A stretch of 64,000 nt of DNA from Sphingomicrobium arenosum. GTDB taxonomy: Bacteria > Pseudomonadota > Alphaproteobacteria > Sphingomonadales > Sphingomonadaceae. The notes beneath the pieces are model-generated. The model searched no databases. It saw nothing but the letters and a program-made list of their open reading frames with translations, and was not told the DNA's origin. The DNA lies in NCBI RefSeq assembly GCF_026157085.1, contig NZ_JANPVN010000001.1, positions 1,860,001-1,924,000 of the forward strand, read 5' to 3'. This document shows positions 23,761 through 29,997 of the stretch, in pieces. Position 1 is the stretch's first letter. The number at the start of each line of letters is the position of its first letter. Position numbers and translations under genes: made by a program.

Positions 23761-24519
23761 ATGACCAGCACCATCACCCTCATCACCGGCGCTTCCGCCG
23801 GCCTCGGCGAGGAATTCGCTCGCCAATATGCCCGGAAAGGGCACCGCCTCGTCCTCGTCGCGCGCCGCCGCGACCGCCTCGATGCGCTTGCCGCCGAGCT
23901 CGGCAATGCCCGTACGATCGCCACGGACCTCAGCGAACCCCACGCCGCCAGCCGCCTCCTCGCTGACGTGGCCTCGGCGGGTGAGACGGTCGGAACGCTC
24001 GTCAACAATGCGGGCTTCGGGCTCGTCGGCGCCTTCGATGCGCTCGACAATGCCCGCCAGCGCGAGATGATCGATTTGAACTGCGGCGCGCTCACCGAGC
24101 TCGCCCATGGTGTCATTCCCGGCATGAAACGACTCGGGCACGGCGGCATCGTGAACGTCGCCTCGGTCGCCAGTTTCCAGCCGGGCCCCGGCATGGCGGT
24201 CTATTTCGCGACCAAGGCCTATGTCCTCTCCTTCACCGAAGCGCTCCACGAAGAATTGCGCAAATCCGGCATTTCCGTCAGCGCGCTCTGCCCCGGCCCG
24301 ACCGCCACCGAGTTTGGCGACGTGGCCGGTTTTGGCGGAAATTCGGCGGTCGATGCGGTCAAGATGACCGCCGAAGAGGTCGTCGCCGCCGGGATCGCCG
24401 GATTGGACGCCAACAAGGCCGTCGTCGTGCCGGGTCTCGCCAACAAGATTTCCGCCAATTCCAGCCGTTTCCTGACCCGCAAGGCGGTGCGGAAGATCGT
24501 CGGCATCATCAAAAAGTGA
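23761..24519 (+). CDS. Short-chain dehydrogenase/reductase
   Basis: This 252-residue classical SDR oxidoreductase uses NAD(P)H. It shows the nucleotide-binding TGASAGLG (residues 9-16), NNAG (82-85), a catalytic Ser near 135-138, and Tyr148-x-x-x-Lys152 (YFATK). The basic ARRRDR segment after the second strand suggests NADP(H) preference. The substrate cannot be predicted. A candidate small RNA gene begins about 54 bp after its stop. Confidence 0.93.
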   Translation: MTSTITLITGASAGLGEEFARQYARKGHRLVLVARRRDRLDALAAELGNARTIATDLSEPHAASRLLADVASAGETVGTLVNNAGFGLVGAFDALDNARQREMIDLNCGALTELAHGVIPGMKRLGHGGIVNVASVASFQPGPGMAVYFATKAYVLSFTEALHEELRKSGISVSALCPGPTATEFGDVAGFGGNSAVDAVKMTAEEVVAAGIAGLDANKAVVVPGLANKISANSSRFLTRKAVRKIVGIIKK

Positions 24520-24538
24520 ACGTTCACAACTTTTGCAC

Positions 24539-24567
24539 TTGCACAATAAATTGTGCGGTGCGATAAA
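24539..24567 (+). promoter_or_regulatory. Promoter of the candidate small RNA, with inverted repeat
   Basis: TTGCAC (24539-24544) and GATAAA (24562-24567) are separated by 17 bases, a good sigma-70-type arrangement. Between them lies GCACAAT-AA-ATTGTGC (24541-24556), a 7-bp inverted repeat that could be an operator. The -35 region is inside a 17-bp sequence that recurs upstream of rel. Confidence 0.6.
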
Positions 24568-24573
24568 GGTTGC

Positions 24574-24642
24574 GTCGGACCACTGGTTCGGCATCCTCTC
24601 CTGACGGGGCCCGGACACTTTCGAGTGACCGGGCCCTTTTTT
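24574..24642 (+). ncRNA. Candidate trans-acting small RNA of about 69 nt
   Basis: A short transcription unit is defined by the promoter at 24539-24567 and a strong terminator at 24607-24642. It contains a first hairpin CGGACC-ACT-GGTTCG (24576-24590). An unpaired linker with CCTCTCCT (24595-24602) follows, which is complementary to Shine-Dalgarno sequences, and then the terminator stem. No ORF with a ribosome site fits. Hairpin, C/U-rich anti-SD linker and terminator is the layout of alphaproteobacterial sRNAs such as the suhB/MmgR (alpha-r8) family. Membership is an inference. It could alternatively be an attenuated leader of the Cdc48-like gene 74 bp downstream. Confidence 0.62.
24607..24642 (+). 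terminator. Strong intrinsic terminator of the small RNA
   Basis: GGGCCCGG-A-CACT pairs with AGTG-A-CCGGGCCC around a TTCG loop, followed by TTTTTT. There is a single A-A mismatch in a 13-position stem. Confidence 0.9.
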
Positions 24643-24715
24643 CATTCCGCCTCCGTCCCCACGTGAACCTTTGTCCGCGCCGACCCATTGTCGGTGGAAG
24701 AACGAAGGAATATCC

Positions 24716-27052
24716 GTGCCCGACAGCGATACGAAGACGAAGCCCAACCGCGTCCAGGTGGCCAGCCTGCCGCCCGCCGATTCAGGGCGCGGCCTCGCGC
24801 GCCTGCCTGCCCAGCTGATGGACCGCCTCCGGCTCGCCGATGGCGATGTCATCACCATCACCGGCAAGCGCACCACCCCGGCGCGCGCCATCCGTCCCTA
24901 CAAGGACGATACCGGGCTCGACATCATCCGCCTCGACGGGCTCCAGCGTTCCAACGCGGGCGTCGGCGCGGGCGATTTCGTCACCGTGGAAAAAGCCACC
25001 TCCAAGCCCGCCAAGAAGGTCAGCTTCGCTCCCGCGCAAGCGGGTGTGCGCCTGTCGGGGTCGACCGACGCCCTCAAGCGCAGCTTCTTCGGCGCGCCGC
25101 TCACCAAGGGCGATTTCGTCGCCACCGCCGGTCACCAGCGCGTCAACACCGACATGCCGGAAACCATCCGCCAGCTTCTTCAGGCCCCCACCTTCGCGCT
25201 CCAGGAAATTCGCCTCCGCGTCGTCTCGACCAAGCCCGAGGGCATCGTCCATATCGACGCCGACACCGAGATCGAGCTGATGCCCGAGGGCGCGGCGGTC
25301 GAGGCGGGCGAGCGCCCGGCGATCACCTATGACGACCTTGGCGGCATGACCGACACCATCGACGCGCTGCGCGAAATGGTCGAACTGCCCTTGAGGCATC
25401 CCGAACTGTTCCAGCGCCTTGGCGTCGACCCGCCCAAGGGCGTCCTGCTTCACGGCCCGCCCGGCACCGGCAAGACCATGCTCGCGCGCGCCGTCGCCAA
25501 TGAAAGCGACGCCGAATTCTTCCATATCGCTGGCCCCGAGGTCATGGGCTCGGCCTATGGCGAATCGGAAAAGAAGCTCCGCGAACTGTTCGACAATGCC
25601 GCGAAGGCCGCGCCCAGCATCGTCTTCATCGACGAGATCGACTCAATCGCCCCGAAACGCGACAAGGTGCAGGGCGAGGCCGAAAAGCGCCTCGTCGCCC
25701 AGCTTCTCACGCTGATGGACGGCCTCGAACCACGCGCCAATCTGGTCGTCATCGCCGCCACCAACCGGCCCGATGCCATCGATCCCGCATTGAGGCGCCC
25801 CGGCCGCTTCGACCGCGAGATCGTCGTCGGCGTCCCCGACGAGGCCGGCCGCCGCGAAATCCTCGGCATCCACACGCGCGGCATGCCGCTCGCCGAGGAT
25901 GTCGACTTGGACAAGCTGGCGCGCCGCACCTACGGCTTCGTCGGCGCCGACATGGCCAGCCTGACGCGCGAGGCCGCGCTTGAGGCCGTCCGCCGCATCA
26001 TGCCGCAGATCAATCTCAGCGAAGAGGAGATCCCGCAGGACATCCTCGACAGCCTGGCCGTCACCGCCGACGACTTCCGCGAAGCACAAAAGCGCGTCCA
26101 GCCCAGCGCCATGCGCGAGGTCATGGTCGAGGTACCGCGCGTCGGCTGGGACGATATCGGCGGCCTCGACGAGGCGCGCGACAAGCTGAAGGAGGGCATC
26201 GAACTGCCGCTCCGTCATCCCGACGCCTTCCGCCGCCTCGGCATCCGCCCGGCCCGCGGCTTCCTCCTCTACGGTCCGCCCGGCACCGGCAAGACACTGC
26301 TCGCCAAGGCCGCCGCGCGCGAATCCGAGGCCAATTTCATCGCCACCAAATCTTCGGACCTCCTGTCCAAATGGTATGGCGAGAGCGAACAGCAGATCGC
26401 CCGCCTCTTCAGCCGCGCCCGGCAGGTCGCCCCCACCGTCATCTTTATCGACGAGATCGACAGCCTCGTGCCCGCGCGCGGTGGCTCGATGGGCGAACCC
26501 GCCGTGACCGAGCGCGTCGTCAACACGATCCTCGCCGAAATGGACGGGCTGGAGGAGATGAACAACGTCGTCGTCATCGGCGCGTCCAACCGCCCCAACC
26601 TCCTCGACCCCGCGCTCCTGCGCCCCGGCCGCTTCGATGAATTGATCTACGTCGGCCCGCCCACGCTCGAAGGGCGCCGCCGCATTCTCGAGATTCACAC
26701 CTCGAACATGCCGCTCGGCAAGGATGTCGATCTCGACTTCCTCGCCGAGAAGACCGAGCGCTTCACCGGCGCCGACCTCGAGGATCTCGTGCGCCGCGCG
26801 GGCCTCACCGCCATGCGCCGCGACATGGAGAAGGCCGAGGTGTCCAAGGCCGATTTCGATGCCGCGCTCGAGGAGACCAAGCCCTCGGTAACGCAGAAGA
26901 TGATCGACCAATATGCCCGCATCCGCTCCAACCTGAAACAGGATGCGATCAAGCCCGGCCCGACCATCGGCTTCGTCTCGCCGGGCATGCTCAGCCCGCG
27001 CAACGCGCAGAAGAACGGCAAGCCCGCCAACGGCGAGGGGGAGGCCGAATAG
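24716..27052 (+). CDS. Cdc48/VAT-type AAA+ ATPase
   Basis: This 778-residue ATPase has the Cdc48/p97 architecture. An N-terminal double-psi barrel (about 10-95) and Cdc48 domain 2 (about 110-190) come first. The D1 AAA domain has Walker A GPPGTGKT (247-254) and Walker B Asp306-Glu307. The D2 AAA domain has GPPGTGKT (520-527) and Asp579-Glu580. Both have arginine-finger-like RRPGRFD/LRPGRFD segments. It probably unfolds proteins as a hexamer; partners in bacteria are not established. The start is GTG at 24716, with GAAGGA just upstream. The C-terminus is polar and lacks a recognisable binding motif. Confidence 0.94.
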   Translation: MPDSDTKTKPNRVQVASLPPADSGRGLARLPAQLMDRLRLADGDVITITGKRTTPARAIRPYKDDTGLDIIRLDGLQRSNAGVGAGDFVTVEKATSKPAKKVSFAPAQAGVRLSGSTDALKRSFFGAPLTKGDFVATAGHQRVNTDMPETIRQLLQAPTFALQEIRLRVVSTKPEGIVHIDADTEIELMPEGAAVEAGERPAITYDDLGGMTDTIDALREMVELPLRHPELFQRLGVDPPKGVLLHGPPGTGKTMLARAVANESDAEFFHIAGPEVMGSAYGESEKKLRELFDNAAKAAPSIVFIDEIDSIAPKRDKVQGEAEKRLVAQLLTLMDGLEPRANLVVIAATNRPDAIDPALRRPGRFDREIVVGVPDEAGRREILGIHTRGMPLAEDVDLDKLARRTYGFVGADMASLTREAALEAVRRIMPQINLSEEEIPQDILDSLAVTADDFREAQKRVQPSAMREVMVEVPRVGWDDIGGLDEARDKLKEGIELPLRHPDAFRRLGIRPARGFLLYGPPGTGKTLLAKAAARESEANFIATKSSDLLSKWYGESEQQIARLFSRARQVAPTVIFIDEIDSLVPARGGSMGEPAVTERVVNTILAEMDGLEEMNNVVVIGASNRPNLLDPALLRPGRFDELIYVGPPTLEGRRRILEIHTSNMPLGKDVDLDFLAEKTERFTGADLEDLVRRAGLTAMRRDMEKAEVSKADFDAALEETKPSVTQKMIDQYARIRSNLKQDAIKPGPTIGFVSPGMLSPRNAQKNGKPANGEGEAE

Positions 27053-29980: not shown

Positions 29981-29997
29981 GGCGCTTCCAGGTATCG

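Follow-up and report, generated by a model that had tools for sequence, protein, structure and literature searches.

A predicted small RNA gene beside a Cdc48-like gene in Sphingomicrobium is probably a diverged alpha-r8 (suhB/MmgR) family member under PhaR control

The intergenic segment between an SDR-type oxidoreductase gene and a Cdc48-like AAA ATPase gene in a 64,000-nt stretch of Sphingomicrobium arenosum DNA (hereafter, the window) holds an sRNA-type element that is confirmed to be real and not a chance arrangement. Judged by sequence comparison, this element is a diverged orthologue that descends from an alpha-r8 (suhB/MmgR; RF00519) sRNA gene. Taken together, the data make it highly probable that this Sphingomicrobium alpha-r8 sRNA is repressed by PhaR, is released by PHB, and acts with Hfq to block ribosome sites; we infer the transcription of the window sRNA, its control by PhaR binding, its Hfq dependence and its targets. 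The sRNA family, its regulator and a sphingomonad member are already known. As far as literature searches show, the diverged copy, its candidate PhaR sites, its synteny with Cdc48 and its losses within the genus are new. Specifically, a literature search for Sphingomicrobium sRNAs found none; a search combining PhaR, suhB, sphingomonads and polyhydroxy used terms that were too broad and gave nothing relevant among the matches listed; and neither suhB nor an sRNA is mentioned in the main text of the genome paper for Sphingopyxis granuli (PMC4741004). The alpha-r8 family links carbon storage to protein synthesis, and the window copy is too changed for a standard RNA database search.

Direct reading of the sequence placed the promoter, its inverted repeat, the 8-bp hairpin, the CCTCTCCT linker and the TTCG-loop terminator just where the original prediction had put them (Table 1). 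The −35 and −10 boxes are separated by 17 nt, the predicted sRNA starts 54 nt after the SDR stop codon, and the terminator combines a 13-bp stem with one internal mismatch (24606-24637) and a T-run (24637-24642). Folding and covariation indicate that the element has the order hairpin, single-stranded anti-Shine-Dalgarno stretch, intrinsic terminator. The 69-nt stretch folds with −35.7 kcal/mol, compared to a mean of −22 for shuffled sequences (z −4.45), a value equaled by none of 200 shuffles. A consensus scan of the window listed neither the sRNA promoter nor the sRNA terminator, because the promoter hexamers agree with the E. coli consensus at 7 of 12 positions (manual count) and the terminator stem contains a mismatch. 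Thus, the case for an sRNA gene rests on conservation. A 388-aa minus-strand ORF across the element is not credible, as transcript lengths in 20 relatives differ by non-multiples of three.

Table 1. Features in and around the predicted sRNA gene (positions in the window)
Feature	Position	Strand	Basis
SDR-type oxidoreductase gene, upstream	23761-24519	+	ORF list
PhaR-like dyad TGCACTTGCA over −35, one extra base between half-sites (YGCRNNYGCR)	24534-24543	+	Found in 19/20 genus promoters
−35 box TTGCAC	24539-24544	+	Sequence; CTTGC invariant in 20 genus promoters
Inverted repeat GCACAATAAATTGTGC inside promoter	24541-24556		Sequence
PhaR/AniA core operator TGCGGTGCG (YGCRNYGCR), between −35 and −10	24554-24562	+	Published motif; predicted site
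−10 box GATAAA	24562-24567	+	Sequence; GC[GA]ATA in 20/20 genus promoters
Predicted sRNA, ~69 nt, putative alpha-r8/suhB/MmgR orthologue	24574-24642	+	Covariance models R3, R1
5′ hairpin, 8 bp, GTCGGACC-ACT-GGTTCGGC	24574-24592	+	Fold; covariation
Single-stranded linker, 13 nt, anti-Shine-Dalgarno	24593-24605	+	Fold
CCTCTCCT within linker	24595-24602	+	Sequence
Intrinsic terminator, UUCG (TTCG) loop, six T	24606-24642	+	Fold; hairpin then T-rich tail in aligned copies
TGAAC-N17-CATT, EcfG-like stress-sigma promoter candidate of Cdc48-like gene	24664-24689	+	Pattern
Cdc48-like AAA ATPase gene, GTG start	24716-27052	+	ORF list

BLAST of the element against 61 relatives reached only 6 genomes, its own included, and showed 95% identity with the copy of a near relative, Sphingomicrobium astaxanthinifaciens; syntenic loci were needed. 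A Cdc48-like N-domain was present in 60 of 61 Sphingomicrobium genomes, and DNA upstream of the Cdc48-like gene was taken from these 60, two of the loci (L041 and L060) being shortened by contig ends. The element, with promoter, hairpin, linker and terminator all recurring, was found at 20 of the 60 loci. Across the 20 copies, 94.0% of cells were paired compared to 83.6% after shuffling, and the covariation score was 0.414 compared to 0.230; in neither case did any of 500 shuffles reach as high a value. For two of the five covariation measures the shuffles did reach the observed values, double-change pairs in 47/500 and further pair types in 97/500. In helix 1, three of the five pairs showed changes on both sides. 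All 20 copies contain CTCTCC in the linker, and a CATCCTCTCC linker is invariant in 17 other sphingomonads. As a wider set we used 80 records with a close Cdc48, nearly all from sphingomonads by title. The RNA-part model of the genus, R1, matched immediately before Cdc48 in 79 of these 80 (26.7-62.2 bits), L143 being the sole miss, which bears out the expected conservation of the segment across sphingomonads; one of the 80, L102, derives from the same genome as an R1 training sequence.

The original prediction of a regulated sRNA was supported by the promoter, over which lie matches to PhaR/AniA-type operators (motif: PMC12542648, PMC6201568). PhaR of S. meliloti is described as binding NYGCRNYGCRN and shifting the mmgR promoter (PMC12542648) and as repressing mmgR (PMC12542648; review PMC8401924), and Bradyrhizobium PhaR as binding TGCRNYGCASMA (PMC6201568). 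Like mmgR as described there, the window element has a putative PhaR/AniA site in its promoter, assigned here by motif match (PMC8401924, PMC12542648). The core YGCRNYGCR occupies one fixed place beside the −10 box in all 20 genus promoters, compared to a background of 94 occurrences in 58,814 positions. The core is also found in 29 of the 30 genus phaR promoters examined, and the phasin promoter of this genome has three. By script, all 37 phasin loci have at least two PhaR cores within 75 nt (background, 22 of 80 two-kilobase coding stretches), a count in which the clusters at L198, L215 and L217 are G+C-rich DNA unlike a phasin promoter; the own promoter of L215 has two cores. The gene for PhaR was detected in 58 of 61 genus genomes, including 47/47 near-complete ones, and phasin and PhaC_N in 61/61. 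In five phasin promoters (L202, L207, L211, L218 and L219), the extra-base dyad seen over the −35 box takes the place of the usual first PhaR core, which suggests that PhaR may also read YGCRNNYGCR.

Control by a regulator other than PhaR, with the conserved TTCGCACTTGC over the −35 box as the site of that factor, has to be weighed against this assignment. In the wider set no part of the promoter varies less than TTCGCACTTGC (70/79 exact and 78/79 with at most one mismatch), whereas an exact PhaR core near the −10 box is found in only 34 of the 79 promoters (0.024 expected in each) and is missing from 45. However, the core fixed in genus promoters is the PhaR motif as published, which phaR and phasin promoters have in common, and the +1-spaced form stands for the ordinary first core in the five phasin promoters named above. 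We consider a different regulator rather unlikely and favor PhaR. A TGCAA motif was also noted 8-26 nt before TTCGCACTTGC in 69/79 sphingomonad promoters (L102-L181).

At the Rfam gathering cut-off, only a tRNA was found in the window. The element scored 11.5 bits against RF00519 at a loose threshold, compared to a cut-off of 41, so the window sequence itself fails the suhB family search that the original prediction had proposed, and by the formal rule of Rfam it is no RF00519 match. Genome-wide, nothing in this 2.56-Mb genome exceeded the RF00519 cut-off, and the element was unlisted at E ≤ 10. RF00519 matched in 33 genomes among 61 relatives, exceeding its cut-off in 27, with 21 of 22 genera represented; this genome was not among them. 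Of the 20 syntenic genus copies, nine passed the cut-off (41.1-54.0 bits), three were intermediate (28.4, 23.2 and 23.1 bits), and the remaining eight, that of the window included, were unlisted at E ≤ 10. Scanning of 20 other sphingomonad loci from the wider set of 80 gave 17 that passed; L116, L123 and L143 fell below. Thus, even where the locus is conserved, diverged copies escape the Rfam model.

Two further models, R2 (transcript only) and R3 (with promoter), were built solely from the 17 passing sphingomonad copies and contain no Sphingomicrobium sequence. R3 found the window element at 24523-24643 with 38.7 bits (E 2.8e-7; next match, 13.6), recovered 20/20 genus copies, and had no match with E ≤ 1 at any of the 40 genus Cdc48 loci that lack the element; an extra match lay on the minus strand of L031 (13.4 bits). 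The own-genus model R1, whose training set includes the window sequence, gave 56.5 bits. Because syntenic copies pass RF00519 and R3 finds the window copy, the element appears to descend from an alpha-r8 sRNA gene, and the likeness to suhB/MmgR proposed originally is borne out as one of descent. Alignment indicates that the window branch gained a longer, G+C-rich 5′ hairpin and lost the A/U-rich spacer before the terminator. The element resembles the family (RF00519; S. meliloti MmgR, Caulobacter SisA-D) in its 5′ hairpin, C/U-rich anti-Shine-Dalgarno stretch and intrinsic terminator, and differs from it in having an 8-bp rather than a weak hairpin and no spacer before the terminator, as well as in falling below the Rfam cut-off. 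The linkers differ too: the 10-mer UUUCCUCCCU, given for Caulobacter SisA-D (PMC12559287), is absent from the window linker, which has AUCCUCUCCU instead. The Caulobacter 10-mer is absent from the 17 passing sphingomonad copies as well, of which all 17 have AUCCUCUCC and 14 have AUCCUCUCCU. Two other matches in this genome were rejected as extra copies: C1:1193748, ranked second for R1 (23.5 bits), and C1:826416, ranked first for RF00519 (24.9 bits), are terminators that lack the CTCTCC linker.

That the element represents a new sRNA family, similar to alpha-r8 in layout only, would account for an RF00519 score far under the cut-off, for a hairpin and spacer loss unlike those of other sphingomonad copies, and for the transcript-only model R2 giving 23.1 bits to the element compared to 23.8 to an unrelated plain terminator at 29981; but the locus, promoter and linker are those of copies that pass RF00519, graded intermediates are partly present, and R3 matches the window and genus copies, and we view a separate family as very improbable. 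Another known family, Atu_C4 (RF02499), aligns with the element end to end with parts in the same order and was rejected at 16.1 bits, compared to its cut-off of 80; it matched none of the 61 relatives, in a search that picked up no control genome either and so carries no weight.

The position of the element raises the alternative that it serves the Cdc48-like gene in cis, as a 5′ leader or a transcription attenuator. Consistent with this, nearly all the sphingomonad records have it immediately before Cdc48 and in the same orientation, and in S. astaxanthinifaciens (L008) it remains beside Cdc48 even though a further gene separates it from the SDR gene. However, the other 40 genus loci, the two shortened ones included, have Cdc48 without the element, and genome-wide searches revealed promoter-bearing copies away from Cdc48 in four genomes: G069 (twice; L253, L262), G063 (L256), G006 (L257) and G003 (L258). 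R3 backs these five at 53-72 bits, and by sequence they are taken to be moved or duplicated sRNA genes. In addition, genus loci have a separate Cdc48 promoter candidate beyond the terminator, which the records of other genera lack. Specifically, [TG]GAAC-N14-18-C[GA]TT occurs upstream of Cdc48 at 46/60 genus loci (L007-L067), in 2/400 control chunks, and in 1/80 wider-set records. The label of stress promoter candidate for 24664-24689 is based on likeness to the consensus for the sigma factor EcfG. An EcfG (general stress) promoter of Cdc48 was possibly gained in Sphingomicrobium. Finally, the SuhB of Sphingopyxis is a 61-nt stand-alone RNA (PMC6563040). We therefore hold a cis-acting leader to be a very poor account of the element and retain a stand-alone sRNA.

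Within the genus, a match to the SDR gene was found upstream at 16 of the 20 element-bearing loci, ending 189-313 nt before Cdc48 in 15 of the 16 and 1,328 nt before it in L008. The 322-codon gene between SDR and sRNA in S. astaxanthinifaciens (L102:1202-2170; L008) is absent from the window, and the sRNA of that species still adjoins Cdc48 despite it. Of the element-less loci, 34/40 have an SDR match, ending 22-135 nt before Cdc48 in 27 and 188-728 nt before it in 7. When presence of the element is mapped on a tree of 48 SDR proteins (15 from loci that have it; strong support for only 9 of the 45 inner branches), it requires 4 changes compared to 13 in shuffles (0/500 as low). Together with its occurrence in other genera, this reads as an ancestral element with few losses. 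Genome-wide, R1 matched in 27/61 genus genomes (23/47 of high quality); G010, G080 and G027 had weak R1 matches only (21-26 bits). Closely related species that share the PHB genes but differ in having the sRNA offer a natural comparison. One record in the wider set, L135, titled Bacillus sp. 2B10, has a sphingomonad Cdc48 gene and sRNA and is probably a mislabelled or mixed assembly.

In the mechanism that we propose, PhaR (AniA), a binder of DNA and of PHB granules, would occupy two dyads, one over the −35 box and one between the −35 and −10 boxes, and silence the gene. Accumulating PHB would draw PhaR to its granules, and the ~69-nt RNA would be transcribed and stop at the terminator. With Hfq, the single-stranded CAUCCUCUCCUGA linker would pair with target mRNAs at their Shine-Dalgarno regions and lower their translation, which would tune carbon metabolism to storage status. 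Using sequence alone, this extends to sphingomonads the PhaR-MmgR circuit established in S. meliloti, and it provides a ready explanation for the published PHB-SuhB link in Sphingopyxis. As published, SuhB of Sphingopyxis granuli TFA is a sphingomonad sRNA of 61 nt with proven Hfq dependence, its transcription is favored by PHB granules, and its target is thnR, the regulator of the tetralin pathway; by this published description it is like the window sRNA (PMC6563040). Action on many mRNAs, as originally predicted, may be expected from the anti-Shine-Dalgarno linker and by analogy with Caulobacter SisA, an alpha-r8 sRNA (PMC12559287).

According to a review, MmgR reduces the amount of phasin protein in S. 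meliloti, whether by a direct or an indirect route (PMC8401924). As a target here, phaP did not stand out, as linker pairing was equal or better for 38 of 44 window start regions, in a comparison with crude start calls and this window as the only background. Exact 8-mers complementary to the linker occur 21 times in the window, 6 of them in the element itself; two lie near plausible gene starts, at ~12682 and ~35646 on the minus strand, without statistical support. These genes presumably encode electron transfer flavoprotein beta and malic enzyme, respectively. A broader reading, which we put forward tentatively and think somewhat doubtful, is that sphingomonads couple their storage state to a broad translational brake: PHB-titrated PhaR, which would also read the extra-base dyad, would free an sRNA in which the anti-Shine-Dalgarno linker alone is accessible, and part of Sphingomicrobium would have lost this arm but retained phaR, phasin and phaC. 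The hfq gene of this genome lies at G000:C1:699445-699843 (L269, L270). It is a single frame of 157 codons that holds two Hfq domains, a tandem Hfq.
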